A stretch of 64,000 nt of DNA from Ilex aquifolium (lineage: Eukaryota; Streptophyta; Magnoliopsida; Aquifoliales; Aquifoliaceae): the NCBI GenBank assembly GCA_951799425.1, contig OX637394.1, forward strand, positions 12,270,501 to 12,334,500, read 5' to 3'. How positions within the stretch are numbered: the first letter of the stretch is position 1; every line of letters begins with the position of its first letter. Below are positions 3,606-57,548 of the stretch, piece after piece. The position numbers and the translations under genes were made by a program. The notes beneath the pieces are model-generated. The model worked only from the letters and a program-made list of their open reading frames with translations. It did not search any database and had not been told where the DNA came from.

Positions 3606-4480
3606 TCAACTACTCTCTTGACACATGAAATTAACATAACCGTCATCACACACAACAATGATGTCACCATCGAAAGTGATTGCGGAAGTGTCTTCTTGCT
3701 TCTTTTCATCACATTTTTCTTTCTTTTGATCCCTCTTGAGTTTTCTACACTCTCTCTTTATGTGCCCTTTCTTGTGGCAATAATGACACTCTATATTTTT
3801 CCTTGAACTTGAAGCTTCTCGTGATTTATCATGTTTGTGAGATGTTCTACTTTTACTTCTCCCCCGCTTCTCCATGACAAGTGCTTCAGAATGAGAAGAA
3901 CCGGATGACTTCCTTCTTGTCTCTTCATTTAGCAAGCTACTAGTCACTTGACTCATAGTGACAATTCCATCGGGGGCGGAGTTACTAACCGTCACTATCA
4001 AGGTCTCCCAACTTTCCGGCAAGAAACTAAGAAGCAACAAAGCTTGCAACTCATCATCAAAAAGAATCTTCATGGAGGAAATTTGATTTACAATGCTTTT
4101 CATCTCATTCAAATGTTCCACAATGGAGCTGCCCTCTTTATACTTTAGATTAACAAGCTTTCGAAACAAAAAAAGCCTTGTTAACGACCATTTTCCTCTC
4201 ATAAAGACTCTCTAACTATTGCCAAAGAGAGTGCTGAATTTTCGGTAGAGACATGGTGGAAAACACTATCATCAATCCATTGACGAATAAACCCGACAAC
4301 CTTTCGATTAAGCTTGGTTCACTCACCATCTATCACACCTAGGGGTCGACTTTTTTCACCTTCTATGGGTCCATAAAGATCTTTACAATACAAGAGGTCT
4401 TCTATTTTAGTCTTTCATGTCACCCAATTGGTTCCATTGAAGCTAATCATACACCCCACATTACCTTCCATTATTTACAC
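3606..4480 (-). pseudogene. copia gag with zinc knuckle, disrupted
   Basis: The clearest open part (3606-4202) has a UBN2-type gag body (LFRKLVNLKYKEGSSIVEHL, DDELQALLLLSFLPESWETL), a basic Ser/Arg linker, and one CX2CX4HX4C knuckle (CHYCHKKGHIKREC). Upstream the reading continues with stops towards 4480, where the original start is expected. Gag packages the element RNA in virus-like particles; stops make this copy inactive. Confidence 0.88.
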
Positions 4481-7776: not shown

Positions 7777-7813
7777 TGTTCCTGTTACAAGTAAGCTGAT
7801 TCCTCAGTGACTG

Positions 7814-9088
7814 ATGGTAACAACTCGAAATATGAGCAGAAGTCAAACAAACCTACCACGAATGCAAGATCAGCAGGAAGCCACCAACGGCAGACAACCC
7901 GGGAACATCCAGGAGACGAATTCCCCCATTAATAACGAGTTGGAGGCCCTTCGCCTCGTCAACCAACGATTGCTAAAGGAAAATGCAGAGCTATCAAAGC
8001 TCGTACAACGCCCACAGGAGGCACGACCGGCCCAAGAAGGCCAGAATAACCCCCCTTACAGGGAACGGCGACACTGGGACCCCCTCAGAGAGGTCGACGA
8101 AGGAGGAGAAAGCAGCCAGACCAGGGGGCATGCTCCTTATGTACCCTCTAGGAATGGCCATAACGACGAGATGCAAAGTCAGAACGACGAGGGCGATAGG
8201 GATGATTCTTTCCCTTATCCACCGGACAGGAAAGAGCAGCGCTGGGAGCAACGCTTCAAAGACATCCAACAAGAGCTCAGCCACATGAAGGAGGCTGTAA
8301 AGAGTAAAGCTCTGGTTACAATGGATGTCTTGGTTCAGCAAACCGAGTCCCCATTCACCACGGAGGTGCTACACTTCCCTCTCCCACCGAAGTTCAGGAT
8401 GCCTCAAATAGAGGTCTTTGACGGGTCAAAAGATCCCGTGGATCATCTCAACACTTACAAGAACCAGATGGAGCTACATGGATACCAGGATCCCGTACGC
8501 TGCAGAGCTTTTGCCATCACATTGAAAGGCTCCGCCTTAGCCTGGTTTCACAGGCTCCCACCAGCCTCAATCTCATCCTTTAAAGAGTTTTCCATAGCTT
8601 TCGTATCTCACTTTATAGGAGCCCGGATATACAGAAAGCCAAGCTACCACCTGCTGAACGTGAAGCAAGGTCCCCAAGAGAACCTGAGGTCTTATGTCCA
8701 AAGGTTTAACTCGGAGACATTGAAGGTAGACGTCCCAGACGAAAAATTCGCCATAACTGCTTTCATTGCAGGGTTGGGAGTGCAATCAAAGGACTTGATG
8801 TTCTCTTCTATATCAAAGAACCCTCAGGCAAGCATGGCTGAGGTGCTAGCCAAGGCAGAGAAGTATATAAATGGCGAAGAGGCACTCCTTTCTAAAGTAG
8901 GAGGAACATCCTCACGAAAGGAGAAGGAAAAAGAGGAGAAGATAAGGGACAGGAGTCCTAGGAAGGAAAAAGGGCGAGAGAGGTCTCCCAGAAGAGATAG
9001 GGACCGCTCGCCAAAGAGAAGAGGAAATGTCAGAGATCGCCTGGGCCCCATGCAGCCTGAACTGCAGCCCAGATATGGACCCCAGTGA
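7814..9088 (+). CDS. gag: Tat gag (capsid) part of gag-pol
   Basis: The 424-aa frame starts MVTTRNMSRSQTNLPR. It has a coiled-coil-like stretch (residues 40-65), a charged linker, and a plant retrotransposon gag body: FPLPPKFRMPQIEVFDGSKDPVDHLNTY, then GSALAWFHRLPPASISSF, FVSHFIGARIYRKPS and VKQGPQENLRSYVQRFN. A basic Arg/Lys/Ser/Glu tail precedes TGA at 9086-9088. The next frame (from 9110) is in the same phase and begins with the missing gag tail including a zinc knuckle. The TGA therefore probably interrupts one gag-pol frame, by mutation or as a readthrough stop. Confidence 0.93.
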   Translation: MVTTRNMSRSQTNLPRMQDQQEATNGRQPGNIQETNSPINNELEALRLVNQRLLKENAELSKLVQRPQEARPAQEGQNNPPYRERRHWDPLREVDEGGESSQTRGHAPYVPSRNGHNDEMQSQNDEGDRDDSFPYPPDRKEQRWEQRFKDIQQELSHMKEAVKSKALVTMDVLVQQTESPFTTEVLHFPLPPKFRMPQIEVFDGSKDPVDHLNTYKNQMELHGYQDPVRCRAFAITLKGSALAWFHRLPPASISSFKEFSIAFVSHFIGARIYRKPSYHLLNVKQGPQENLRSYVQRFNSETLKVDVPDEKFAITAFIAGLGVQSKDLMFSSISKNPQASMAEVLAKAEKYINGEEALLSKVGGTSSRKEKEKEEKIRDRSPRKEKGRERSPRRDRDRSPKRRGNVRDRLGPMQPELQPRYGPQ

Positions 9089-12000
9089 TTCACCCCACTC
9101 ACTGCCGCTGTGTCGCAAGTTCTGTATGAGGTCCAAAACGAGAAGTTCTTAAAATGGCCACCTCGGATGAAAGCAGATCCAGCCAAAAGAGACCCCACCA
9201 AGTACTGCGATTACCATAGAGACCATGGTCACCACACTGATGACTGCATTCAATTAAAGAAGGAGATCGAGTTTTTGATCCAACGAGGTCAATTACGTCG
9301 TTTTGTAGCCAATGACAACCAGAACCGAGTTCTTCCACTTCCACCACCCCGACAGCAGGCACCTGCACCGCACCAGCAGCCTCCAGGGGAGATCAGAGTA
9401 ATATCAGGAGGGTTCGCAGGAGGCGGAGAGTCCAGCTCAGCCAGGAAAGCACACCTTCGACGAATCAGAGCCGAAGAAGCTCTGGAAGTGCACGCTGTGT
9501 CCAAGGTACCACGTTTGGATACAGCTATCACTTTTCCAGACGCTGATCTAGAGGGATGCCAGTATCCACATGATGATCCATTGGTGGTACGAGCTGTGGT
9601 GGCTAATAGAACCGTTCATCGGGTCCTAATCGATAACGGGAGTTCGGCGGATATCATTTTCGCACCTGCGTTTGACAAGATGGACATAGGAAGGGAGAGA
9701 CTCGAGCCAGTAAACACTCACTTGCTGGGATTCTCCGGGGAAAGGGTGCTCCCCCTAGGTTCGATTCAACTCGTGCTCACCCTAGGGGACCCGCCTTGCC
9801 AAGCCACTACCACGGTGAAATTCCTAGTAGTCGATGCACCATCTGCATACAACATCTTGCTTGGAAGGCCATCCCTTAATTCTGTGAAGGCAATCCCATC
9901 TGCCTATCACTTAGTCGTGAAATTCCCTACAGATAATGGAATCGGGGTAGTCCGAGGAGACCAGCGTATAGCGAGGGAGTGCTATATGGCTTCTATACAA
10001 AGAAAGGAGGTTGAGAACATCCAACTGGACGAACTCGACATGAGAGATGAAATGGAGACAAGGCCAATGCCATCGGAAGAGCTGGAACCAGTTCAGCTTG
10101 ATGAAAAGCCAGAACACCTCGTTTATGTGGGTTCCAGACTGAACGCTGAGCTCAAAGGACTCCTCATCCAGTTCCTAAAAGAGAATATAGGAGTGTTTGC
10201 TTGGAAGCAAGAAGACATGGAGGGAATTGATCCTTCGGTTATTTCCCATAAGCTAAGTGTGAGCCCAACTTGCAAACCCATCAAACAGAAGAGGAGGAGT
10301 TTTGCCCCCGAAAGGCAAAGGGCAATCAATGAGGAGGTCAGCAAACTCCTCCATGCCAAGGCTATCAGGGAGGTTGATTACCCCATCTGGTTAGCAAATA
10401 TGGTTCTTGTAAAGAAAACCAATGGAAAGTGGCGACTGTGCATTGACTTCACTGATCTCAACCGAGCATGCCCCAAGGATAGCTTTCCCTTGCCTCGGAT
10501 TGACCTAATAGTGGATGCCACAGCCGGGCATGAGCTCCTCAGCTTCATGGATGCCTTCTCAGGCTACAACCAAATCAGGATGGACCCCAGCGATCAAGAG
10601 AAGACCTCCTTCGTAACTGAACAAGGAACATACTGTTATCAAGTCATGCCCTTCGGGTTGAAGAATGTTGGAGCTACTTACCAGCGCTTGGTGAATAGGA
10701 TGTTCCAAAAGCAAATAGGAGCATCCATGGAAGTTTACATTGACGACATGTTAGTAAAGTCACTCAAAGCAGAGCTCCACATCGAGCACTTAGCTGAGTC
10801 ATTCCGAATCCTAAAGGAGTACAAAATGAAGCTCAACCCTGCGAAATGCGCATTCGGTGTCTCAGCAGGGAAGTTTCTGGGTTTCATAGTTAGCAGCCGA
10901 GGAATTGAAGCCAACCCAGAAAAGGTCAGAGCAATGGTGGAAATGCAATCACCATCCAACACAAAAGAGGTGCAACGCTTGACAGGCAGGATAGTTGCCC
11001 TGAGCCGTTTCGTGTCTAGGTCGAGCGATAAATGCCAGCCATTTTTTCAGGTCTTGAAGAAGGCATTCCAGTGGGATGCCAAGTGTGAAGAAGCATTCGG
11101 AGCCCTAAAAAGCTATATGAGCTCTCCCCCCGTTTTGGTAAGCCCTTTAGAAGGGGAAGTCCTCACCCTCTACCTAGCAGTTTCAGATTTTTCGACAAGC
11201 GCAGCGCTGGTTAGGGAGCGAGACAGAGCTCAGCAACCAGTCTATTACTGTAGCAGAGCTCTGAGGGGGGCAGATGAGAGGTATCCAAAAATGGAAAAAC
11301 TTGTTCTAGCCCTGGTTACAACAGCTAGAAGACTTAGACCTTATTTCCAGGCTCATACTATCGAGGTCCCAACAGATCAGCCGTTGAAACAAGTATTGCA
11401 TAAGCCAGAGTCTTCAGGAAGGTTGGTTAAATGGGCCATAGAGCTCAGTGAGTTTGATATCAGATATAAGCCAAGAACTGCCATCAAAGGGCAAATTTTG
11501 GCGGATTTTATCGCAGAGTTCACAGCAGCAGCGCCTATGGAAACCACAGATTTAATACCAAACCTCCCCATATGGAAGCTTTCAGTAGATGGAGCTGCCA
11601 ATGCTCAGGGAAGCGGTGCAGGAATGATCCTGACATCCCCAGAAGGAATAGACGTCGAATATGCCCTCAGATTTGGGTTCAAAGCTTCAAATAATGAGGC
11701 AGAATATGAAGCTGTCATCGCCGGGCTTAATCTTGCTTATTCTATGGAAGCAGAGCAGTTGGAGATCTGCAGCGACTCTCAACTAGTGGTAAAACAGATA
11801 GAAGAGGCCTACGAAGCAAGAGGCGAAAAGATGGTCCTTTACCTCAAAAAGGTACGAGAAATAATGAAAAAATTTGTGCAGGTTAAGGTCAGACATGTGC
11901 CCAGAGCAGAAAATTCACGAGCAGATGCGTTGGCAAGGTTAGCGACTGCCTCGCAAGAAGACTTGGATAGACTAATACCAGTGGAGCACCTCCCAGAGCC

Positions 12001-13288
12001 TTCAGTGAGTATCGAAGAAGAGGACATGCTATCAGTCGAAGCTCAGCCGAGCTGGATGGACCCCATCATAGGGTACCTGCAGAATGGGACTTTGCCAAGT
12101 GATGCTAAGGAGGCATCCAAGCTAAGGGCCAGGTCAGCCCGATTTTCCTTGCTACAAGGAGGTCTGTACAAGCGTGGATTCTCAACGCCTCTCCTTAAAT
12201 GTGTGGGGGATGAGGATGCCAATTATATACTCAGAGAGGTACACGAAGGTATATGCGGCAATCACATAGGAGCTCAGGCCTTGGCAGGAAAAGTACTAAG
12301 GCAAGGGTATTTTTGGCCCACCATGCTCAAAAGTGCCACCGACTTAGTAAGAAAATGCAAGACTTGCCAGGAGCATGCCAATGTGTCCCACCATCCTCCC
12401 GAGCTCCTAACCTCGGTGGTAAGCCCATGGCCTTTTCAGCAGTGGGGTTTGGACATTCTGGGACCCCTTCCCACCGGTGTGGGACAGTGCAAGTTTGCCA
12501 TCATAGGAGTGGATTACTTCACCAAATAGGCAGAGGTCGAACCTTTGGCAACAATCACTGAGCAAAAAGTTCAAAACTTCGTTTGGAAATCGATAGTTTG
12601 CAGGTTTGGGGTTCCCAGAGCGGTCGTGTCCGACAACGGAAAGCAGTTCGACAATTCGAAATTCAAAAGCTTTTGTGCCGAGCTTGGGATCAAGAACTAT
12701 TTCTCAGCTCCTGCACATCCCCAATCCAATGGGCAGGCAGAGGTCACAATCAGAACCATAAAGTCAGCCTTGAAGACCAAACTAGAAAACCTGAAAGGTA
12801 AGTGGGTGGAATACATCCCTGAGGTATTGTGGGCCTACCGGACCACCGTCAGATCTGCAACTCAGGAAACACCCTTTGCTCTGGCCTTTGGAACCGAGGC
12901 AGTAGCCCCTGTGGAGATAGGGCTCCAATCACCAAGGGTGGAATTTGCAGATGCCGAGCACAATGATGAATCTCTCCTGTTAAACCTCGATCTCTTGGAT
13001 GAAAAAAGGGACAGAGCTCTGCATCGTGTCCGCATTTACCAAAGGAAAACTGCAAGGTATTACGACAGGAAGGTAAGGCACCGAAGCTTCAAGGCTGGAG
13101 ACTTGGTACTTAGGAGGCTTCTGCTTGCAAGAAAGGATCCCACGCATGGAAAATTGGGGCCCAACTGGGAAGGGCCCTATATCGTGTCAAGGGTAATCCG
13201 ACCAGGGAATTACGAATTGCAAACAGAGGAGGGAAAGGTCCTACCTCACTCGTGGAATGCCGAGCACCTTAAGAGATTTTTTCAGTAA
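9089..13288 (+). CDS. pol: Tat pol: zinc knuckle, PR, RT, RNase H, aRNH, integrase; one internal stop
   Basis: Domains in order: zinc knuckle near 9206 (CDYHRDHGHHTDDC); aspartic protease near 9630 (IDNGSSADIIFA); RT with FMDAFSGYNQI near 10543 and YIDDML near 10736; gypsy RNase H about 11160-11500; then a second, archaeal-type RNase H about 11570-11940 (LSVDGAANAQGSGAGM, NNEAEYEAVIAGL, CSDSQLVV, ENSRADALARL), which marks Tat elements. Integrase follows: HHCC (HEGICGNH to CKTC) near 12240-12370, D at 12450 (GLDILGP), D near 12630 (VVSDNGKQF), E near 12735 (SNGQAEV), and a GPY/F-type C-terminus. A TAG at 12527-12529 falls inside YFTK-AEVEPL, where relatives have Trp; the downstream part (to 13288) is in the same frame. 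As written the protein stops within the integrase core. Confidence 0.95.
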
Positions 13289-16953: not shown

Positions 16954-19593
16954 CTAAGTTTCTGGGGGGGTAATTGAAGGATCTCGCAGCTCAGCAGATG
17001 AGCCCTCAGCAACAGAAGCAAAGGGAGAGCTTCCAGAAATGTCTTGGGTCCTCACTCCCGTTGATTCCGGATCTTGGACAAGGGCTTCAGTCACCAAGTC
17101 AACTGAAAATGGTGCAGAAACAGGAACAGAAGGATCTGCAGCTAAGAGCTCAGGAATCACCGTTGGAGGCTCAGAAAGTACTATAAGAGCTCCAGAGGTC
17201 CCGGGGGCAGGTATGTCTTGACTCAAGGCTGCAGCTGAAGGAACCGAGGCATCCTCCTCATTATCAGAGCTAGACTCTTCCATTTCTTCTTCGGTAGGGA
17301 TAGAAAAATTGAAGTCGAGGTCAGGGAAAGCTTAGATAGCCTTGCGCCTAAAGGCAAGCCATCCAGTAGCCCACAATGTGGTGGCCTCATCTCTCAGCTC
17401 AGCAATTTCTTTGTCCCTCTGTTGGGCCAAGCCTTCCTGCTCCTTGAGCTCCTCGCAGAGCTTGCCATTAGCCTCGTTGAGGGCAAGGTAATCTTGATTG
17501 ACCTGGATGAGCTCTTTCTTGGCGTCGAAAGCCTCTTGGCTAGCCTTGGTCCACGCCTCAACCTTAAGCTGCAGGTCCTCCTTTACTAGCCTTAGCTCAT
17601 CACGAGCTTTCTTTTCCCCTTCCTCCGCTCTGACCTTGACGGTCAATGTGTGTTTGAGGTCAGAAGCCTGCTTCACCAATTGCTCATTGAGGTTCCCCAC
17701 TTGAGCCTTGAGGTCTTCATTCTGAGCTCTGAGGTCTTCGTTCTCAAGAGACAATTCAGAAACCTTGGCCTTATACTTCTTCAGAACCTGAAAAGAGCTC
17801 TCTTGGGACCGAACCCGATGCAGTAGACCATTCACATGAAGGACAGCCTGAAAATCCGAAAGAACGCATGAGACCACGAAACAAAAATAAGTGAAGAAGG
17901 AGAAGTGATAGCGCTTACAGCAGCAGCTCCCTGAAGAGCTGAAGAAATGGACTCCTCAAGAGGCATGGAAGCGGCCTTCAGAACATCAGACTCAGAGAAA
18001 ATAGAAGAAAGAGCCCCTGCAGCAAGATCCATGTTGTCAAAGAAGGAATCCTCATCTTCTTCAGATTTTCTCTCTGCCTTCCCAGAAGCAGTGTATGAGA
18101 ACTTTCTGGGTTGGAGGTCAGGGATCACTCCCAAGGCTTTCTCAACCTCAGAGGAGGAAGAGGAAGCCTGATCTCCCTTTCGAGCAGGCACCGACCCAGG
18201 ATGGGCCACTGGAGGAGGAGAGATGACTACATTTTGAGGGATGCCGGATGAGGAAGGCGGTGCCTTGATGGGAACCAATTCTGTAGTAGCAGAGGGGGGG
18301 TGAAGGCACCTCCGACCTGGGAATTTTAGCTCGAGTGTTTGGACCACTCCCAGAGCTGACCCGAGCCTTGCGTTTTCCAGACCGGCCACCTCTCATTAGT
18401 TCTGCAACTTTAGCCTGAATCTCTTCTGGAGTAGACTTCATGGTAGAAGGACCTGGGAAGTCTGGATGGAATAAGGAGATGTAAGGAGAAAAAGAATAGA
18501 AGGAAAGATGATGAAGAGAGGAAAACAAGTGATGATGAAATTACCTTCGTCAACCCCTAAAACAGATAATGGAATCGCTAAAGTCGCCACAGGAAGGCTC
18601 AGACCTAGCTGCACCAAATTTCTTGACTCAATCAGGTCGGCGTACTTCTCCGGCTTGATCTTCGCCAACTTCGCTAGCACCCTCTTATCTTCAGGGCTGA
18701 GCTCAAAACGATCACCTGAAAAGAAGAAAGTGTGCAAATAAGAGAAAGGCAAGAGGCCTATAAGTTCCAGACCAGAGCTCAGTCGACTCAAGTAAAGACT
18801 CACGCAAGTTTTCTGGTTCAGTCCAAGCCGTAGGGATACCGAGAGTGTCAGTCTTATCAGCAGGATTATACTCCCAATTGGTGCCCCCGACAAAAAAGAA
18901 ATGCTCCTTCCAGTGCTTATGAGAGGTCGGAATGTTAGAAATAAGCTGCCTAACGTTGGCACGCTTAGAGGCATACAAGAAGCCTTCAGATGTCGGTTTA
19001 ACATTAAAGAACTCTAGAAACAAGGAAATGCTGGGAACCCCGAGTTTATGCTTCCTGAAGATGACTAGAAAACCAACCATGACACCATAGAAGTTGGGGG
19101 AAATCTGGGAAGGGCACACATGAAAATGTTGCAGAACAACCTTGATGAAGGGGTGCAGAGGAAAGCGAAGACCGTTATCAAAGGCAGCAAGAAAGAAGCA
19201 GACCCTATTGCATACTTGTTCTACATAGTATACGAATTTGTCTGGACACCAGGGTTCGACCCCAGGAGGAAAACCATACCGAACTTTATAAGCCTTCATT
19301 AGCTCAGGGGCCTCTTTGCTGTAGCCCACAGACTCGGCATGCCTGAAGGCCGACCCCAAATATGAGGTCTTCTTTTCAACCCCGACTCCACTCACCTTGA
19401 CTTTGCCTTTATCAGGTCTGGGGGGCATGGGAGAAGAAGTAGAGGGAGGCTCCTCGGTACCCACCTCGGTTTCTACAGCCTCTACACCAGGAAAGTTATC
19501 AATTTCGTCACCCACGTCTCCTAAATCAGTGTCCCCAGACCTATTGCCCAGTAGGGAGACAGAGGAACAAGTAGCACCAGAGGAGGCAGACAT
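16954..19593 (-). pseudogene. Tat antisense gene A: four-exon PF04195-like/coiled-coil gene, broken
   Basis: Start codon at 19593 (MSASSGATCSSV). Exons: 19593-18804, 18715-18545, 18461-17919, 17847-16954; all three introns (88, 83 and 71 bp) have GT donors and AG acceptors, and intron 2 has two possible acceptors 9 bp apart. Exon 1 carries the Transposase_28 core (FDNGLRFPLHPFIKVVLQHF, FYGVMVGFLVIFRKHKLGVP, HFFFVGGTNWEY). Exon 2 gives DRFELSPEDKRVLAKLAKI. Exon 4 is a long coiled coil rich in Glu, Lys, Gln and Leu. Two breaks: one extra base in a 7-G run (18294-18300), and an in-frame TAA at 17332-17334. The tail reads on in frame to 16954. It is a diverged paralogue of gene B. Confidence 0.82.
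16962..16977 (+). other. internal polypurine-like tract in Tat
   Basis: The run TTTCTGGGGGGGTAATTGA resembles the end of a polypurine tract plus LTR edge but lies 3.3 kb before the real 3' LTR, overlapping the stop of antisense gene A. It could be a second-strand primer or a relic of a related element. Confidence 0.3.
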
Positions 19594-20215
19594 GATTGGG
19601 CAGGAAAAAGGAAGATTAAAGGAGAGATAAAGAGGGGGAACACTGATCAAACTCTCCCTAATAACCCTAGGGTCAGCACAATAACTACCAACAGCTAGTA
19701 TGTGCACAATCGAACTCCAGCCCACGAAGCGAGGAAGAGGGGATAAGCAATAATCGCGACGCCAGAAATAAAAGAACCTAAAAGACCAAAAACGCAGCAA
19801 CCACCTCGAACTCGAGGGATCCAGAACGAAGAAAGGGGGCAGAAAACACGTACCTAGTGGAAAGAAAGCAACGAACGAACCAAGGGCCAAATCAGAAGGG
19901 GAGGCACTGTGGGTCTTCAAATCGAACACAGGGGAACCGATTTAGAGCAAGAAATCAGGAAAGTTTGAGTAAGATCGTCTGAAATCGCAAGAAGGACAGA
20001 GACGAAGAAGTAGAGAAGAAGATGAATAGTGCGCAGAAACGGTTCAGGTAGCCGTTTTGGGGCATTTAAAGCTTGGGGAACGTGGGTTGAGACATGCGCG
20101 GGAGTCGAGGAGAGTCATGATTTCTACTAACCGTCAAAAATCTTCAAGTCACGTGCTAGCCACGTGCATATTTAACTCTGTCCGGAATACAGGTCAGCCC
20201 CTGCCTAAGATCCTA

Positions 20216-28180: not shown

Positions 28181-28456
28181 TCACGTGTGGAACTGAGTAG
28201 CAAGAGCAAGAACAAGCTTAATTGTAGCATGCTTAACCCCTGGATTGAAGGTTTCATGATAATCAACCCCATGCTCTTGATGAAACCCCTTGGCCACCAA
28301 TCTGGCTTTATACCTGGAAACTATGTCATCAGAGTTGTGTTTGATTCTGAAAACCCATTTACAACCAATGGGAGAATGGTTAGAAGGAGGAACCAGAGTC
28401 CAAGTTCCCTGATGTTGTAAAGTAGAGAACTCTTTAGACATAGCCTGTCTCTCCAC
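28181..28456 (-). pseudogene. copia RT N-terminal fragment
   Basis: The frame reads GTWTLVPPSNHSPIGCKWVF, then DDIVSRYKARLVAKGFHQEHGVDY and ETFNPGVKHATIKLVLALA, the start of copia RT. It ends abruptly at the LTR, so the catalytic YVDD part is deleted. Confidence 0.9.
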
Positions 28457-30064
28457 TCAAGAAATTGAGATGCAGATGTAAAAAGGTAGGTTCAGCAACT
28501 GAAGTAGCAGAAAGATAGGCTTTAGGCTTGAAAATACCAGATTTAGCTCTAGTTTGCATAGGGTGAGTAGAAAGAGGTAGGGGCAGAACTGGTGGAGTAG
28601 GATTTGGGGAAGGATTAGACATAACAAAACTATGAGGAGGATGAGAAGATATGTTAGAGGATATAGGTAAGGTAGAGGCTGCAGATTCTGGAGTAGAAAA
28701 CAAAGATGTGGCAGAAGGTAGACAAACTGGTGTATGGGAAAGAAGAAGAGGGAGTAACTCAGGAGATGCTATAGGTGAAATAGAGGGAGGAAAGCCCAAG
28801 ATAGAAGACTGAGAAGTACCAGGAGAAGTAGAAAGAGGAAACCAATGACTAGGATCAGGAGGAATATAAGGAGAATAAGAAAAGGATTTAGCATAAGGAA
28901 AAGTTATTTCATCAAAGATAACATATCGAGAAGTATAAATTCTATTGGTTTGAGGATCAAGACATAGATAACCCTTGTAATCAAAGGGATAACCAAGGAA
29001 CACACACTGAGTAGTTTTAGGCTCAAGTTTATGACTAGAATAAGGCTTGAGCAGAGGGTAAAAAGAACAACCAAATATTTTGAGAGCTGAATAATCAAGA
29101 AGTTTTTCAGAAATAGCAGACGAAAAGGACTGCTGAGTGTTGTAGGAAGGATATTCAGAAGAAGCAGCCATAGCATTGAAAGGTGGAGAAGGTGAAGACT
29201 GAACTTGATAGGCACTGTTCATGCGATGATAACAGTTAACTACACTGTGACCAAACTTTCCACAGATCTGAAAATAAATCTGAGGCTTCTGTGAGATAGA
29301 GTTAAATCTAAACTGTTGAAAATGAGATATGTTGCCATAGTTGTTTCTGTCTCCTTGATTAGATCCACGACCTCTATAACTAGAGGAGTCTCTGCCTGAA
29401 CAAGAATTGGGACGAGTGGAATTAGGATCATATAATTTTCCTTGTGAATCAGTCATAGCTGATGGATTGAAAAAGGTTGGGGATGATTGAGAATATGCTA
29501 AAACAAAAATTTCTTCTGCCTTTAGTAGAGAATGAAGATCCTCCAGAGAAAGAGGCTGAGATCTAGTTCGAATTGTTGTTCGAAAGGCACTATATTCAGG
29601 TGGCAAACCATTAAGTGTATACAACAATATATCCTCATCTTCAATGATAACCGAAACTTCTTGAAGCTTATCTCTAGCCTCTTTGACTTTCTACAAGTAG
29701 ACATCAATAGAATCTAAACCTTTGGTGATGGTTTGAAGCAGAGACTTGAGCTGCAGGATATTAGCTCTGGATTGAAATGAAAATCTTCTTTCCAGTGCAA
29801 GCCAAACATCCTGAGATGTAGTATAGCCAACAACATGTGCAATAGTAGAAGAGAAAAGTGTGGCATTAACTAGAGTCATAAGAGCTTGATCTTGAATAAT
29901 CCACTGTTGATGATATGGATTAATCTTTGTAATAGCAGTGCATGTATCATCAAGCACATATTTGGATGAACAAGGAAATAATCCATCAAGAAAACCAAAC
30001 AAAGAATGAGCTTGTAACAGAGTTGAGATCTAAAACTTCCAAGAGACATAATTGGAAGAATCAA
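28434..30064 (-). pseudogene. copia gag fused to integrase C-terminus by deletion
   Basis: The N-terminal gag part (about 29691-30064) reads QWIIQDQALMTLVNATLFSS and SQDVWLALERRFSFQSRANI. It continues after a break with MLYTLNGLPPEYSAFRTTIR and a Gly/Ser/Arg-rich region with a C-X2-C-like knuckle (CGKFGHSVVNCYH). Near 29110 the gag sequence passes without a break into the integrase C-terminal part (SALKIFGCSFYPLLKPYSSH, QCVFLGYPFDYKGYLCL, SRYVIFDEITFPY). The protease and DDE core are therefore missing. A Ser/Pro-rich linker and MQTRAKSGIFKPK lead into RT. The 397-aa frame 28434-29627 is open, which is notable for a deleted copy. Confidence 0.88.
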
Positions 30065-47702: not shown

Positions 47703-47837
47703 GGATATATGAACTATAGGTTTAGGGTATGGTGTGCAGGGGCGGAGCCAGAAATTCTGGTCAGGGTGGGCACTTTAATTAAGCACTCTAATTTTTTTCC
47801 TTCTAATCAATCACACTATATAATATACTAGGGATAA

Positions 47838-47855
47838 CCCGTGCCTGAAGGCACA
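47838..47855 (-). other. Helitron 3' hairpin and CTAG terminus
   Basis: The minus-strand stem GTGCC/GGCAC with a TTCA loop, then GGGTTATC and CTAG at 47831-47828. Confidence 0.82.
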
Positions 47856-48242
47856 GTGTAATATTTTTTGAGGACTTTTTTAGCAAAACTTGCTCTAAAA
47901 ATAGGAGCCCAAAAAAATCTCAGCCTATCTACAAAACTCAGAATCTCTTGAATGCACAATACAATCAAACCTAAAATTCATAATTCACAATCATACATAA
48001 CAATAATCATAGTTCACAATCAAAATTCTCCCAAAATTTACCATTCCGAACCCAACTATCAAAACAACCATCAATTCCAATAGTCAACTAATTATATTCT
48101 CATCCATTAAATACTGCTTATGCAAACTAAGATAGTCACAAGTCAGGATCAATTGTACCACGCATCTAAATGCAAGTGTGAAATGTACTTAATTCAATGT
48201 GGATGCCTCAGTCACCAGTCAGTCAATAATATGCTTAAGAAC

Positions 48243-48667
48243 CCTTCGCCTTCTTGTGCTAAGCCACAAGCCATGATTCAAAAGCTGAAAATAAGAGAGA
48301 AGTGGCAATACCACCCAAAACACGACCCAACATCAAAACTTTGTACTGTGGAGAATGCTTGGTAATATAGCTCAATATGGAGAATGCTTGGTAATACAGC
48401 TCAACATCACACATGCCCGCTTTTGACCCCTGAATTTAAGTTATGAACCATTAGAAAACAACACAAGCAATCAATTTCAACATAACAATAATGTTTACAC
48501 AAATTTCAGATAGAAAACTCACTATTTGTCAGCTACAGATCCAACAATTGTCCCAAAAAACATGGAAGATCTAAATCCTGCAATAAAGAGCTGTTCAATC
48601 TCTCCTTTCCCAAAGTCATATGTCGCGTAAAGGTAGTAGACATATGGACCATGCAATCAATCACCAA
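48243..48667 (-). pseudogene. captured MFS (molybdate-anion transporter-like) exons
   Basis: Exon a (48667-48523) reads HGPYVYYLYATYDFGKGEIE, then QLFIAGFRSSMFFGTIVGSV. Exon b (48429-48243) reads ITKHSPQYKVLMLGRVLGG and IATSLLFSAFESWLVA. These are adjacent exons of the plant DUF791/MFS_5 family, with intron junctions preserved (AG acceptors; GTGAGT and GTTCTT donors). Damage: stop where GDW is expected, a stop at the end of exon a, a 29-bp tandem duplication (48349-48377, 48378-48406) that shifts the frame, and a stop after SWLVA. It is a fragment, not a functional gene. Confidence 0.88.
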
Positions 48668-48679
48668 CTGTTGCCACAT

Positions 48680-51600
48680 AAACGTAACTCATCAGAAAAA
48701 ATAAACATTAATACATCCAACAGGTAATACGTACAATTCATACGATTCTTGTCATCAGTTCACGAAGCAAGGTCTAAATAATAGGCAGGGAATGCCACCA
48801 TTAGATTCTTAAGTTAGTTGTCAAAAACCAATTAATTTACCCTAATCAAGAATATCTACAATGAAAAATACTTCTCATGGTTTCCTTGCAAACAAACTGA
48901 TGAAAAGGAAAGGAAAAAAAAAATTAGATTTTGAATTCAACATTTACAGTTTTTCAATTCCAAACCTTTTCTAAAAAAATCCACTAATATCATTACGGTA
49001 AGTTAAAAAAGTACTTAAACTAACAGAACTTATATAAAATTGTTGCATTAAACACTCATCTAATACCGACAAACCATGGGATCAAACCCAAACCGTGAAC
49101 CAAACACTGTGTTCTTTAGATCACTTCCTACCAGTGACTCCACAAGATAATCAGATCAGAGGACGAAAACAACTAAGTTGCTCAAAGTCTGTTGGTAGCT
49201 TAGAAAATCCAGTAAGAATATATTCAGGTGCATTTAAAAAATGAAAAAATTCAATAGATTTATTTTGTTTTCTAAGTCCTAGCCGATTAAACTTTTGAGA
49301 ATCACAAAATCAATGTATTTTTTTTACCTCCTACATTTTCTCAATAACCCCATAACACACTCAACCAGAGATAAGAGTGAGATCCCATGTTTCCCCAAAT
49401 ATCCATAGCACAAAATTAATAACCAATATCCATAAACTATATTCCATCATCAATAGCTAGATTTCAACGAACACTTACCCCAAGAGATCCCTACTTCTTT
49501 GTGTGCAATTGTACAGGTGTGCATTTAAGTATCTATGCATCGCTAAGTTAGTGCAAGACTATAGGAGGTAATTGAAAGAAACGGCCATCAAGGAATGATG
49601 GTGCAAATGTTTCAATTCAATAAAAAAGCTATGTAGTCTAGAGACAAAAGATAGAATAGACGGCTGAAGATCAATTTTCAAGAAAACAATTGCTTAATGA
49701 ATCACTTGCAATCATTGGTGTCACACCGCACCAATGATTGTTAAACTATTAAAAAGAGTTGTTAAACTAATAAAAAGAGTTATTCAATAACAAAAAACAA
49801 ATAAAAAAAACCAAGAAGAGGTATTTGTAGTAAAATTGAATGAAAGTTGTTACCTTCATCGGCTTAATTTGGGTGAAGCACTGCAATCATGAAATTCATC
49901 AAACACCTAAATGGCAAAAAAAAAAAATTCAATATATTAAGAATGATTAGTACCATAAAATTAAACTATGTCAAATCCTCTTGGTTGGAATCCTTCTTCA
50001 TTAAGATTTCATAACTTGACACATTAGTATACGTATAAATTAGGTCAATTTTTAAGGTTCCAAAAGCATTACTCATTGGATGATTAATGTTGTTGGGACC
50101 TCAAAATCTGACTTAATATGCTCACCGTTAGATTATGTTTCAATATTTGATGGGATTTATGGTCAATCTAATGGACATAATGAATTTGCTCTTAATAGCA
50201 TTGCTCTTTACTAATATGATGATGCAATAAAAAAGTGTAAAAAAGTTCATTAAGCATTGCTCTTAATAAATTTGCTCTTAATATCAAGTGATGGACTCGC
50301 AATAAAAAAGTTCAACATACACAACAATACTGTAAGCAAGCTGTAAAAGCCCAAGGGATATATTTTCTTGACCAGAAAATTAAAAAACAAAAACAAAGAT
50401 GTCTAACTGTTTCATACAGGCCACATGGCTACAATGACATGAAAACAAACAGTGACATTACTCTTTTAGGAAGAAAGGTTCAAAATTTTATTATTTTTTA
50501 GGAAGAAAGGTTCAAATGGAGTGAAATGGTTTTGAGATCTTAGATGGGACGAATCCAAGTTCTATCCAACCATTAGAAAGCGACACATATATGTATTTTT
50601 ACATACATTTGCCTAAACATTTTATAGCCTCAAATTAGCATATTGGCACATTCATCATTGCATCAAGAACCTGATGGTATCTACCCTTGGACACGCAAAT
50701 TTGTAGTTGCAGCACATGCCCAAATTTCTCATCACCGACAATACTTATTCACTTTTTCTCAACAACCAACTTGTATACTACCATATTACATTTTCAAATT
50801 ACACCAAAATCACTGAATCAAACCAATCTCAGTTACCTAAAAAAAAAAAATGAGGACTAAAGGTTCTAGTTGAACTAAAAGGAGATTCATTGACATTGCT
50901 TATCTGATTGCAATAGCATCAATTCTATAAATACCACAAGTTTGTGACACAAAAGAGTAATTTATATAAAGAAACCAAAAAAATGGATATGGTTCGGTGA
51001 AGCTAAAGTCTCCATATGGTAGGTAAGTATCAAAAAATATTACTGCTTCCAAAAAAAGAAAAACAGAGCAATCCAACCCACTTCACTGCTTTGGCCAAAA
51101 ACTAAGAAAAAGCTTTGTTAGACCTACGAAGGGCATGGCAAACAGATTGTTGTCACTCAAAGAAACACATACAGGGAGAGATTAACTCAAGGACACACAC
51201 TGGGAGAGAAACATAGAATAGATTATTTACAATCTTCATGAGGCAAACAAACCCTTTTGACTTATTATTGGGCATTCAAGAGCCTTGTAGGCCACTGTGT
51301 ATTTAAGCAATCTGTTCTTGCAATTTTGCAGTAATGCTAATGATTAAGAAATGAATCAGTATCCATCAAATGGTCCAACAAAGCAAAAAGGTACAAAGAA
51401 TTTTGGAAATTAGAGCTTCAAATATGACCTATAGAATGCTCATTAAGTATTCAAAAGTTTGGCAAGTTGAGATCAAAATTACTCTAAGCAAGAATCAAAT
51501 CCTACTTAAACCCATCATTTTGGTAATTACGAAATACCAACCTCATCCAAAGCTAAGCATGATTAAGGACTCAAAATACTTACAGCAAATCCTAAAGTAA

Positions 51601-51760
51601 GAGCATCTACATGTGCATTAGTGAAGGACTCAAAATTTTTTAATACTTAAGTAGAACAGAAGCCAGAATAGTACCTGTATTAGTGCATTTATTTCCATCG
51701 AGTCCAACAAATTTTTGAGCCTTGCTTATTTCTAAGAGAGAGCTATGGAGTGTTTTGCTT
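48680..51760. other. Helitron interior, unassigned
   Basis: AT-rich. It contains a 12-bp-arm hairpin at 49709-49740 and an open minus-strand stretch at about 50645-50745 (QLQICVSKGRYHQVLDAMMN) with no family recognised. Other short frames look random. Confidence 0.5.
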
Positions 51761-52209
51761 GTTCTAAGGGGGCTGTTCTATGGAGGGAAGCAGGAGGAGG
51801 ATGGGTCAAACTGAAATTCCAAAATCTCATACACAAATTTCAAACCTTAACTGTGAGCTGTGTGTGAGTTCTGTGTGCGAGTGTGTGACACTGTATGTGT
51901 GTGTCAATGGAATATACACGGTTGACGTTCCACGCACTGGCACACAAAGTGAAGGCGAGGGAGACCTGAGACTCGAAGAAAAAAAGAACATCATAGAAAG
52001 AAGAAGGAAACTCAAACACAACTGGAAACCCAAATCAGAAATTCGAAAATTATAATGTTTTTTTCCTTTCCTATATTTCGGCTTGTGGTTTTTACAATGT
52101 AGAATATGTAATGAAGATTGAACAAACATTTTTCAGCAATAGAAAAAAATGCTTTTGTGTACATCCCAAAGATTTCTAGAAAAATTAACAAAAAGCACTC
52201 AAGAAAAGC

Positions 52210-52810
52210 AAGGAGGAGGCTATGAAAAAATCAAACCCTCTACACTATCATTCTCCGTGGGATCTGAAAAATCAATAGAATGCCGCACAAAGAACACTGT
52301 GGTGGGCGAATGTGGTGGGTCTGTGGTGGGCGTGTGCGGTGATGGGTTTGTGTGTGGGTGATGAGTGTGTAGAAGAGGGCAGAGAAGAGGCGGGGCTAGG
52401 ATGGGTGTGTCTGAGAGAGAGAGAGATGAGGCATACCTAGGGCGGTGGTGGTGTTGCTGACTTCGGCGGCTGTGGTGGTAAGAAGAGGCTCTGAAGAAGG
52501 CTTGGCGCGGAGGTGGTGTTACTGGGAAGAAGAAACAAAGGGAGAGAAATAGAGAGAGAGACAAATAGTGAGATTTGGAACTTTTGCCTGACAGAAGGGT
52601 TGGGAAAAAACAAAAATGATGTCCAACTGTCCAAGGCTTTTTACCGTTGTGATTGACAGATGAGTGATTGACTTGATAAAAATTTTGAAAATAATTATAG
52701 ATGAAAAATGATAAATTTGGGGGGAAATGAGAAGATCTGGAACCGTTGGATGAAATAATTTATAACCGTTTGATCGGCTTGTTGAAGCCCGCTCTGTTTT
52801 ATATTATAGA
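52210..52810 (-). other. second Helitron 5' end with GA/CT-rich leader-like segment
   Basis: The terminus TCTATAATATAAAACAGAGC ends at 52810. It is followed on the minus strand by CCAACGGTTCC-type words and a CT-rich segment ending near a CTAG/GTATG-like donor (about 52430). The same layout is found at 56930-57548. Confidence 0.6.
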
Positions 52811-54473
52811 TTTTGTGTTTGTGTATCTCGTGTTTGTGTTGGGTGATGAAGACAGCGAAAGGGATACGATAGAGCTAAATTAGTTTCAGTTCAACAAATA
52901 TTTTTAAAGATGGTTTGAAAAGATTCAATAGAGCTAAGGTGATTAGGTGATTGTATCAGGCCTTCTGCTGAGCCGCAAAAAACCTTATATGGCAAACTTG
53001 GGATAAAGAAACAGTGATTCCTCTAAATGTAAACTTATCTGGTCTACTCCAGTGCAATTCACTTTTTGCAATAAGATGGACTGCCTATTCCCCAGCAGAA
53101 AGAAGAAACACTACGAACTGCAGTCCTTATTGATTATAGAGACGGGAGAGAGAATGGTATAGGTAGAAAGATTGTAATCCCGGCAGGAGCTTGTTAAAAG
53201 ATCATAGGCAAAATAGTATTTTTGTTTTTCTCCACAGGTCAGTCAAAAATTTTGAAAACCTTGTGCTGAATTAGTGACAGGTAACAAAATAACTCAAAGA
53301 TCCAAGAAAATAATTTAGGAATTCTGAGTTTCATGAAGACGGAGGAGAGACCTGGCCCGGTTGATTGCAGCAAAGCAGAGGCATAAGTGTTCCTCAAGAT
53401 CCATCAGCTGGTGGAAGAAATTGTCATGGTTCCTATTCACATGCAACACGTTTCAAACACATGTTATGCTCCTTTTGGAGACATTTCATCAAACACATGT
53501 TATGCTATTTTTTGTATTCAAAATAAAATAATTGAATACAAAAATCCAACCATTCACTCGGTTGCTATTCGATCAAAATCTAACTATGGAATTTCAAAAT
53601 TTGAAGCACTCACATAACCACTATGGAAATTCATAATTTGAAGCACTCACATAGACCCAAAAGTTTTAGGCAATTTTCGATCAACAACTCCTCAATCCAA
53701 ACAACTCATGATACCTATCCACACCCTGTTCTGCTACCTTGTTCGAAAAAAAATGTTTTTGCTACACCCCAAAAAATGGAAGTTCTATTCATCTGACACA
53801 AAAAAATTTATTAGGCCGCCCCCTTGACTCCTCAGTAGTTGAAAATTCCAAACCTTCCATAAATACTCTAACGCCTGATCTTAATAACGAAAAAGAAAGC
53901 AAAAAAAAATTAAATGAAGAATTATCCATAGTACCAAAAAGTGAAAATTTCCAGAATTTTATTCATGCTAAACCTCCAATTACACTATATGAATAAATAC
54001 TCATATTTGAGCCCTAAACCCAAGCTCAACAGAGTAGGAAACAAATAATCCCAATTACTCTAAAATCAAGCACAAACTAATTCCAATAATCCTAACCTGA
54101 ACATCCAATAATTCAATAATCCAATAATTTAAGAGAAGACTTTATTATACTTTAGACAGAGACTCTAACCTGAACATCCAATGTGAGCGTACGATAATGA
54201 TGGTTGGAGGAATCTTGAATACGGCCCCCACCTTTAAATCCATTCATATCAACACTTCTACTAACACAAAAATTTCTTTATACCTAAAAAAACCCAAAAA
54301 AAAAATATTTCACACTATCAAAACTCGCATTTTACTTTACTTATTTACCGCAAATCCCACAAAAGTAAAATAACATAACAATAAATTGAGAGTGGACAAC
54401 AATGCCATAAACTTTGGATAATGAAGACCGTAGGATCGGCTTGTTGAAGCCCTGCTCTGTTTTATATTATAGA
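52811..54473. other. Helitron interior between two 5' ends
   Basis: A third TCTATAATATAAAACAGAGC terminus sits at 54473 (minus). The remainder is AT-rich with no recognised coding; the 85-aa frame at 53739-53996 has no known motif. Confidence 0.5.
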
Positions 54474-54636
54474 TGTCAGCCACAATCCATATGCATCATT
54501 GACAGGGTGGAGAATTCTATAGTGAAAAAATAATCCAAGGATCACAAGGCGGAGTAAAATGATTGATCTGTATGGGTTTATGTTGCTAGAAGAAACAGGT
54601 AACTTTCTTGAAAGTGGCTGCCTGCCTTCATCCATC
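54474..54636 (-). pseudogene. captured cellulose synthase exon, truncated
   Basis: It follows an intron acceptor (CTATAG) and reads [20 protein letters not shown], then [19 protein letters not shown] and AYGLWLTS. This is the CesA segment at the first transmembrane helices. It is cut exactly where the second Helitron 5' terminus begins, between A and T inside the codon after LT, as expected for a Helitron insertion. It belongs with the exon at 55901-56160. Confidence 0.92.
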
Positions 54637-55900
54637 CTATAGAAAATAAAAGAAAGAAAAAGTGATAAATAATAAATTCCTTCAATCAAAGAAAATTTAC
54701 ATTGCATGCATTATGGAAACAAAATATCTAGTTTATCATGAAAAATTTATCTCTAGACACTGGTCAACATAATTATTACACACATGTTTGGTGCCCGCTT
54801 CAACACTTGAAATGTGCCTAAGTTTATCTTCTCATACTACGTCAAAAATGGAAAGATTTATTGCATATTGTTGTTGTAAACTCCAAGTCAGTCAAGTTTT
54901 GATAATTAATCACACATTAATGAAGACTACACATGATATCTAACCTTCAAGTAAATATGATGATGCATAGCATGGGATTACCAATTGCAAATGAGGGCTC
55001 TCGAGGGCATCAAATGCATCAAAAATACAATTCTAGGTTAAAAAAACAAATAACTACATATCCCGAATGAAAAGGCTTTCTCCTGCAGATAAAGTTGATA
55101 TGGAAATTGGGATGATTTCGTCAATTGAAGATTTTGGGTCAGACAACAGCTTATTGATCTCAGTCATAGCCAAGGAACAGGCCAGTAAAAAATATTATTT
55201 TTTCATCAGCACCATGAAGAAATATTGTTGTTCGTGCAATAAATGAATGAAAAACTAATAAGTTCATGTGGCCAAATATTAGCCTCCAAAACACATTTCT
55301 CAATAATTGTCTAAAAACATCTATGCATGAAGTATTTTCATGGCTTCTATTTGTTAATCAGATTAGAAAGCCATAGTAAATGTAGTTGTTCTATTATGTC
55401 ATCTATCCTCGCTGTCAAAAGAAACTCACTTCTTGGCTCTAGGCGGTAAGTCAATACATACCCAATGATTAGGGGAATAAGAAATTAATTTCATGCTATT
55501 TCTTTCTGTTCTAGTATGCCCTTTATCAATCTTCATATTAGCTATTACAATTGAAATTGCTGTGCATAACTACTCCAGTTAATTTAACCATTCAAGACAG
55601 CTGCTTTCCAACAATTACCTACCTACAGATTAAATAAAAGACAGACCAAGTCATATCTGGCACAACCAACTCCCATGCTAATCAGATTATCAAGATATTA
55701 TATTCTCAAAAGAACAGCAGAGACTTAATAACCAAATAATTTAAAGTCCAAACATTATGCCTCATAATTGTAGTTGGTACATAATATATTTGTGTATGTT
55801 ATTTATGATATAAAATACACTAACTACAGTTTTTAACAACTACAAGTCAAATCACCGACAATACACTAAACATGAGAAGATACAGAAAGAATGCACCTAC
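54637..55900 (-). other. captured cellulose synthase intron
   Basis: Lies between the two CesA exons with GTAGGT donor and CTATAG acceptor; AT-rich, about 1.26 kb. It shows that genomic DNA, not mRNA, was captured. Confidence 0.75.
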
Positions 55901-56160
55901 TTGGGCAAATCAGGATCTTCCAACTCATCTCCATCTTTCCCACCACCATTTTCTCCTTGGTGCTTAACCACTTGAAGTTTATCATTTTGCTTTTTCTTCC
56001 ACTCCTCCATTCTTTCTTTCCACGTAACAGTACCATACCCATATACTGCTAGGTCTTTCTTAGGATCCATTGGCCGGGGTGGCACTGCAAGTTCGACATC
56101 AATGTGTACACTAAGCCATGTAATGCTTTGAGCTGGTCTTCGAATCCCAACTGGCTCATT
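55901..56160 (-). pseudogene. captured cellulose synthase exon
   Basis: It reads PPRPMDPKKDLAVYGYGTV, then WKERMEEWKKKQNDKLQVVK and GDELEDPDLPK. This is the linker between the N-terminal RING region and the transmembrane region of a primary-wall-type CesA. No stop occurs in it, but the catalytic domain is absent. The donor GTAGGT follows DLPK. The upstream limit is uncertain; sequence before PPRPMD is open but less typical. Confidence 0.92.
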
Positions 56161-56759
56161 TTTATAATTTCAAGCTCATTTAAATGATGAAAATTTTGAT
56201 TATTTAATTTAAAATCAATACAATTTGCCTAAGTTAAGAAATTTTGGGTGACCTAATCTCAATAATAAAAAAGCAGGAGACCAAATCAAATGGGTAAACA
56301 GTAAAGCCCATAAACTGCAAGAAAACAAAGGCTAAGTTAAGAAATTTTTCCTTGTGTTTAATTGCAGGGAGAATTAACAAATTCCATTTACTACATATCC
56401 ATTTCCAGCTAAGTTATTCATCCCAAACCCAGAAAGGAAATCAAAACAGAAACCATTATTTATATCCACTGCCAATACGATCCAAGGCTGTGGTGGATTT
56501 ATCGAGGTGATTCATGATTTAGTCTTTGTTGTGTCATGAAGACAGAGAAAGGGATATGAAGAGGGCGACAGAATGAGAGAGAGCTTGTTATTGACATGCC
56601 TTTATGGTCAACTATTGCCTAATCAACTTGTTTTTACCCTACATATTGCACTGGCATACTTTGCAGCTCTCATACTTTTCTGTGTCTTATTTGCATCACA
56701 AGGGTAAGAACATTTTTTGGTGCATTGATATTGTCTTTTTCATTCATCATCTGTATTAG

Positions 56760-56894
56760 GCTGGAACCAAGGCTCCAAGGCAGCCACGGCATGATCTACA
56801 TTGCAAAATTGAAGGTCCGGCTGCATATGATGTTCTTATAAACTTTGCTCAACGTTGGAGAAAAGCAAGAAAATGGAATGAGTTTCGATTACTC
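56760..56894 (+). pseudogene. captured phospholipase D exon, opposite orientation
   Basis: After a TATTAG acceptor it reads [20 protein letters not shown], then [20 protein letters not shown]. This is a conserved PLD segment (delta-type by its KAPRQP and RRW-like context) lying after the C2 region. A Trp is replaced by Arg (PRHD for PWHD). The exon ends in a poly(A)-like run without a donor. It is on the plus strand, opposite to the CesA and MFS fragments. Confidence 0.88.
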
Positions 56895-56929
56895 AAAAAA
56901 AAAAATATCTCACTGGCATTTCAACAAAC

Positions 56930-57548
56930 ACTTCATGTGCCATGGATTGGAGCTGTGGTGTGGGGAAGGGGTATGGTCATGGTGGTAACCGAATATGGAA
57001 GAGAAAGAGGGGAAGAAAAAGAGCGGGTGTATGTGACTGCGATTGCGTGCTCTGGCTGGGTGGGGTGTGTTTGTGTTTGTTCGACTGTGTGTGTGACTGT
57101 GTGTGCGTGCGTAGAGAGGGAGGTGAGAGAGAGAGAGAGAGAGAGGGGGAGAGGGAGAAGAGCTTACCTGGGTCGGTGGGCTGGCCGGTGAAGGGTGAGA
57201 TGGAAGAAAAGAGACGAAGTGGCGCTGCTGCTGGTGGTGTTGCTGGTGGTGTCGCTGTGGTGTAACAGAGCGAGAGAGAGAGAGAGAGAGGGGATCGACG
57301 GAGGAAGCAGAGGCAAGATGTAGGGGTGGCTGCATCTCTGACAAATGAAATGACCGTGGTCTGATTTGTTTTGAAAGATAATGAGTAAAAAAATATGAAT
57401 TTGGGGGGGAAAAATGAAGGGGATTAATGGCCGTTGGATGTTGAAGCCCCAAATGATTTTAGACCGTTGGATGTTGAAGCTTAAATTGATTTGAGGCCGT
57501 TGGATGTTGAAACCTTGGGATTTGAGCCGCTCTGTTTTATATTATAGA
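56930..57548 (-). other. outer Helitron 5' end with leader-like segment
   Basis: Starts TCTATAATATAAAACAGAGC at 57548, with three CATCCAACGG words in the first 130 bp, then a CT/GA-rich region with a GTAAGC donor-like site near 57166. It is similar in layout to 52210-52810. Long frames here arise from low complexity. Confidence 0.6.

Follow-up and report, generated by a model that had tools for sequence, protein, structure and literature searches.

How does one Helitron come to carry pieces of several unrelated host genes? The source of multi-gene cargo in Helitrons is debated, and read-through, filler DNA and stepwise capture are the routes under discussion. The question is raised by a locus in Ilex aquifolium, where fragments of a phospholipase D (PLD), a cellulose synthase (CesA) and an MFS_5 transporter lie in a single mobile unit. 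We analysed a window of 64,000 nucleotides around it (assembly GCA_951799425.1, contig OX637394.1, positions 12,270,501 to 12,334,500 of the forward strand; here contig C4), and coordinates given with no contig name are those of the window. The window also holds LTR retrotransposon frames with gag, reverse transcriptase, RNase H and integrase domains (7811-13288), and Transposase_28 (putative gypsy type) and copia-type gag domains on the minus strand (18712-19941, 28434-29690 and 3606-4211).

Results

A unit with two full copies

The minus strand of the composite (Table 1) opens with TCTATAATATAAAACAGAGC at 57548, a TC 5' end that is common to copies of the element, both composite copies and Helitron A copies. 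It closes with the hairpin GTGCC-TTCA-GGCAC, 9 nt ahead of CTAG at 47828; folding of the last 45 nt is stronger than that of most shuffled versions (z -2.87), and 3 of 200 shuffles do equally well. The name Helitron rests here on these features, namely the TC, the hairpin, the CTAG and the A/T insertion site. A sister copy of 9,724 bp on contig C7 (36167069-36176792) has both ends the same in unrelated flanks, and the flanks of both full copies read A|TC...CTAG|T, with the host A before and the host T after and no duplication of the target. Because the same ends stand in different flanks on C7, the outer termini delimit a unit that moved. The two copies differ by 16 substitutions and three indels (0.16%). 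The composite is real, recent and was mobilised as one unit.

Table 1. Parts of the composite Helitron in window coordinates
Feature	Positions	Strand	Basis
Whole unit: non-autonomous composite Helitron A[CesA[B[C]]], 9,721 bp	47828..57548	-	Termini; full-length second copy on C7
5' terminus of Helitron A (outermost)	57529..57548	-	Exact 20-mer; end recurs in the C2 and C1 copies of A
Part of Helitron A that stand-alone copies of A also have	56242..57548	-	C2 96.1% + 99.4%; C1 87.9% + 96.0%
Captured PLD fragment with intron; exon begins at about 56760	56581..56919	+	6kz8; C8 donor match
Short filler, 12 bases	56230..56241	-	Sequence reading
Helitron B interior piece used as patch (109 bp)	56121..56229	-	98% to B copies on C5, C8, C12 and others
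Captured CesA fragment: exon, whole GT-AG intron, exon	54474..56123	-	C12 donor; 8vi0
5' terminus of Helitron B (second in the unit), abutting CesA at A^T	54454..54473	-
Helitron B part	52811..54473	-	97% to C5 and C12 copies; 21/1599 substitutions to C5 copy
5' terminus of Helitron C (third in the unit), within B at A^T	52791..52810	-	Empty site in two B copies
Helitron C part	47828..52810	-	C-type relatives L011, L013; search of 49400-52815
Captured stretch, C9 locus, first piece	52060..52130	-	3/71 substitutions
Captured stretch, local array on C5 (2.89-3.12 Mb)	50847..52054	-	24/1203 to C5:3042960-3044189
Captured stretch, C9 locus, second piece	50522..50820	-	13/299 substitutions
Captured MFS_5 gene fragment with introns	48079..49412	-	Pfam PF05631; putative C1 donor
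Sole 3' terminus: hairpin and CTAG	47828..47860	-	Terminus pattern search, flanks, folding

The genome (800 Mb, 103 contigs) was searched and the best 40 of 490, 64, 412, 385 and 789 candidates were scored, so that copy counts are lower bounds. Among the best 40 of 64, 412, 385 and 789 candidates in four genome searches, whole-query matches came only from C4 and C7. The same candidates included no copy of the composite sequence running from B to the end of C or holding C only, and no full nest with a B tail and an A tail after C. For a Rep/helicase, no Pfam family was found in eight of the 11 composite ORFs of at least 90 aa, and because the scanned ORFs show no Pfam family we take the composite to be non-autonomous. 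About 84 bp that a relative on C18 has just inside its 3' hairpin (L011, 9032-9147) are missing at window 47858-47860, and the composite still moved.

Three 5' ends and one 3' end

An identical 20-nt 5' end occurs three times on the same strand, at 57548, 54473 and 52810, and a single 3' end matches the pattern. The third of these 5' ends lies within B. In two stand-alone copies of B, one on C5 and one on C12, the sequence is unbroken at this place (CACAAACACAAAA|TTCCC), and beyond it B continues as TTCCC(T/C)CCTATACCCC; because the A^T site is empty in both, we conclude that C was inserted in B. Downstream of the 3' end of C, neither composite copy continues with B, which indicates that the composite ended at the CTAG of C and that the tail of B was left behind. 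The several 5' ends with one 3' end of a multi-5'-terminus composite are present, and a nested origin is found for C in B.

The initial annotation had proposed one Helitron at 47828-57548, with TC at 57548, hairpin and CTAG at 47828, and an A/T insertion site. Its outer ends and its single mobile unit are borne out by the C7 copy, but the unit consists of three Helitrons, A, B and C, each with its own 5' end, and the internal 5' termini at 54473 and 52810 had been overlooked. It had staked this reading on termini shared elsewhere in the genome, which the C7 copy supplies with different flanks, and on similarity to the three genes, which Pfam supplied for MFS_5 and the sequences of solved structures for PLD and CesA.

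Two side observations concern the relatives. On the minus strand of the C-type relative L013 (C8:10644501-10654500), two matches to the 5' end, at about 8411 and 4426, perhaps mark another unit with several 5' ends. Pfam searches of seven ORFs of related elements gave two LINE-like reverse-transcriptase pieces (zf-RVT and RVT_3), both in the stand-alone B copy on C5 (L032, 4191-5204, minus strand).

The phospholipase D piece and Helitron A

From 57548 to 56242, PLD included, the composite matches two stand-alone copies of A, on C2 and C1, which diverge from it after 56242; the copy on C2 ends at a 3' terminus of its own, about 7.9 kb further on. Because these copies already hold PLD, the fragment came with A. 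It was recognised by comparison with phospholipase D alpha 1 (6kz8, E 2.2e-8), and its putative donor at C8:9358624-9359014 differs by 3 of 338 bases (0.9%), with a 53-base deletion in the fragment match; further PLD-like exons lie at the donor locus. The same PLD piece (98%), together with a duplicated neighbouring stretch, was also seen at four loci (L047-L050, on C12, C10, C8 and C2), and the one on C12 sits in a different Helitron of 6.6 kb.

The patch, the cellulose synthase piece and the joint with Helitron B

At the inner edge of A the order is A, the 12-base filler, the 109 bp of B interior, and then CesA. Positions 56229-56245 repeat 17 nt of 56332-56348 inside A, about 100 bases away, and the 109 bp derive from inside a stretch of 1,379 bp that the C5 copy of B has and that the composite's B part lacks, with AAAG at that join. 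By eye, short overlaps that may be due to chance can be read at four joins (AAAA, TTA, AAAG and TGA); at another, the C9-to-C5 join, no overlap is clear. This boundary looks like the product of filler-DNA repair, and CesA was probably added in the patch between A and B.

The CesA exon matches 8vi0 at E 1.4e-24, and the candidate donor at C12:26156095-26157785 gives one unbroken exon-intron-exon match with two gaps and 14 substitutions in 1650 (0.85%). Pfam profiles gave no name to either the CesA or the PLD fragments; comparison with PDB sequences identified both. The CesA exon halts exactly at the A|TC of the second 5' terminus (CTGACA|, then the TC of B), and the C12 gene runs on uninterrupted past this point with TCAATTATAT; in an intact nest, TCAATTATATGTG would be expected as the CesA sequence beyond B. 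The plain reading of this joint is that B was inserted at A^T in the CesA piece.

A single template-switching repair could instead have made the entire A-to-B region, passing from A to A itself, to the B interior, to CesA, to the B 5' end and again to the B interior, with C as the only insertion. The overlaps AAAA, TTA and AAAG would fit such a process, as would the origin of the 109-bp patch inside the stretch missing from the composite's B. So would six nucleotides, GACATC, that the CesA gene shares at its joint with B with the flank of the C5 copy; among six B copies whose flank was read, with four distinct flanks, the GACA flank is found in this one. However, the joint falls exactly at the TC end of B, as insertion predicts, and the C5 copy is no nearer than others to the B part, which has 16/957 substitutions to it and 15/959 to the C12 copy (8/977 between the two). 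The flank of the C5 copy is thereby weakened as a template for the CesA-to-B join. The signature of template switching there would be an unlinked B copy with the flank GGCTGACA and the composite B's own substitutions. We judge this repair unlikely to account for the region and keep the insertion of B into the CesA piece as the preferred reading, with copying across this one joint as a less likely possibility.

Helitron C and its cargo

Pfam finds MFS_5 (PF05631) in two exons of the C part, at E 5.5e-16 and 3.4e-17. The putative donor gene on C1 (L016) differs at 110 of 1310 positions (8.4%), and further MFS-like exons lie at that locus. The same fragment is present in other C-type elements, 48/1327 substitutions from the composite on C18 and 86/1254 on C8, and because it is shared with them we place its capture before the others. 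The two C9 pieces (52060-52130 and 50522-50820) stand in the same order on C9, about 870 bp apart and colinear, and in the composite the C5 stretch lies between them. We count the C5 and C9 stretches as captured because they match few, clustered places and because, at the two source loci read (L058, L059), alignment with the element gave no match to a Helitron terminus. Pfam found no family in seven ORFs around their source stretches.

Alignment to donor genes in the same genome, a check that the initial annotation had proposed, gave candidates on C12 for CesA, on C8 for PLD and on C1 for MFS_5. All three genes are present as it had claimed, and one, PLD (+), does run opposite to CesA and MFS_5 (-), but they are not the captures of one Helitron: PLD belongs to A and MFS_5 to C. 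Its limits needed revision too. The PLD piece, put at 56760-56894 (+), keeps its identity and strand, but homology to the donor covers 56581-56919, and the confirmed MFS_5/DUF791 piece, put at 48243-48667 (-), widens to 48079-49412. The CesA pieces, put at 54474-54636 and 55901-56160 (-), are indeed two exons with the intron and its GT-AG kept, but 56124-56160 is Helitron B sequence. The captured stretches between 50522 and 52130 had been missed.

Divergence falls from MFS_5 (8.4%) through C9 (4.3%), C5 (2.0%), PLD (0.9%) and CesA (0.85%) to the two composite copies (0.16%), figures that mix exon and intron and whose order is a guide only. Candidate donors for CesA, PLD and MFS_5, assigned by similarity, lie in this same genome; an unsampled paralogue closer than the assigned donor is possible, above all for MFS_5 with its 8.4%. 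The spliced CesA frame runs for 127 codons and then reads SII and a stop, three codons into Helitron B. The MFS piece keeps its splice GT and AG, but its frame is broken, since the codon across the exon junction reads TAG and a further TAG follows within the second exon. The composite is not evidence of new genes, and transcription of its pieces, including the chimeric transcripts envisaged in the initial annotation, is only hypothetical.

Considering that all three genes lie inside one mobile unit and that stepwise capture is described in maize (PMC3288121), one Helitron might have captured them separately, with the internal 5' ends incidental. We hold this very improbable: the internal 20-nt 5' termini are exact and sit at A|T, the C site is empty in two B copies, and PLD and MFS_5 each occur in separate elements that hold none of the remaining cargo. 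An assembly artefact or a chance resemblance, for which no favourable point was found, is next to impossible with the whole 9.7 kb repeated on another contig in other flanks.

Discussion

We are fairly confident that the composite was built by nesting, and that rolling-circle transfer then began at the outermost 5' end and halted at the first 3' terminator; we infer the following order of steps. First, Helitron A, with antisense PLD already aboard, would have suffered a break, which may have been mended by copied pieces, namely a few of its own bases, 109 bp of Helitron B and 1.65 kb of CesA. Second, Helitron B would have inserted at an A^T within the CesA exon. Helitron C, which carried MFS_5 and two further captured stretches, would then have inserted at an A^T within B, with all three elements in the same orientation. 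Third, a transfer starting at the 5' end of A would have stopped at the terminator of C, the first 3' end that it met. The product would be a new unit that combines three 5' ends with a single 3' end, the tails of B and A having been left behind. This unit would then have moved to at least two places with an enzyme presumably supplied from elsewhere.

The candidate donors, the relatives and the empty internal site stand in one genome and allow fusion by nesting to be told apart from the capture of PLD, CesA, MFS_5 and the stretches from C5 and C9. The rule of starting at the outermost 5' end and stopping at the first 3' end thus becomes countable genome-wide. It is also conceivable, though here we lean slightly towards doubt, that such transfer after nesting is a route apart from capture that fuses the gene pieces of unrelated Helitron families, that such units are common in this genome and that the composite may still move.

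The mechanism is known in outline and has already been proposed in print (PMC5148889); what is unusual here is the completeness of the record. The account of the FoHelis of Fusarium oxysporum describes several 5' termini with one 3' terminus, as in the Ilex composite, and proposes that nicking takes place at the leftmost 5' end and that, in a nested pair, unwinding proceeds as far as the first 3' end (PMC5148889). However, the duplicated 5' stretch described there is typically below 200 bp and arises by self-insertion, whereas the composite joins three different families of kilobase size, with host gene pieces and an internal empty site. For maize helA, 17.6% with multiple 5' termini, stepwise capture and a cited range of zero to nine gene fragments per element are described (PMC3288121). 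Nested Helitrons are a source of multi-terminal elements both there and here, but the worked example of that paper has three 3' ends and one 5' end, and the composite, with these numbers reversed, is its mirror image. Spliced transcripts of captured pieces have also been reported in maize (PMC4528327).

The filler-DNA capture described for Hel1A of Spodoptera, with short common ends at the joins of captured pieces inside the element, may resemble what is seen in the composite; in the composite, unlike Hel1A, the filler would mix Helitron and gene sequence and be combined with nesting (PMC6544945). In the Helraiser/Helibat work, the terminator role of the hairpin was established by experiment (PMC4778049), and in the composite, too, the 3' hairpin appears to set the point at which transfer stops. 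Read-through in that system passes the 3' end, whereas transfer of the composite appears to have halted at the first 3' end (PMC4778049).
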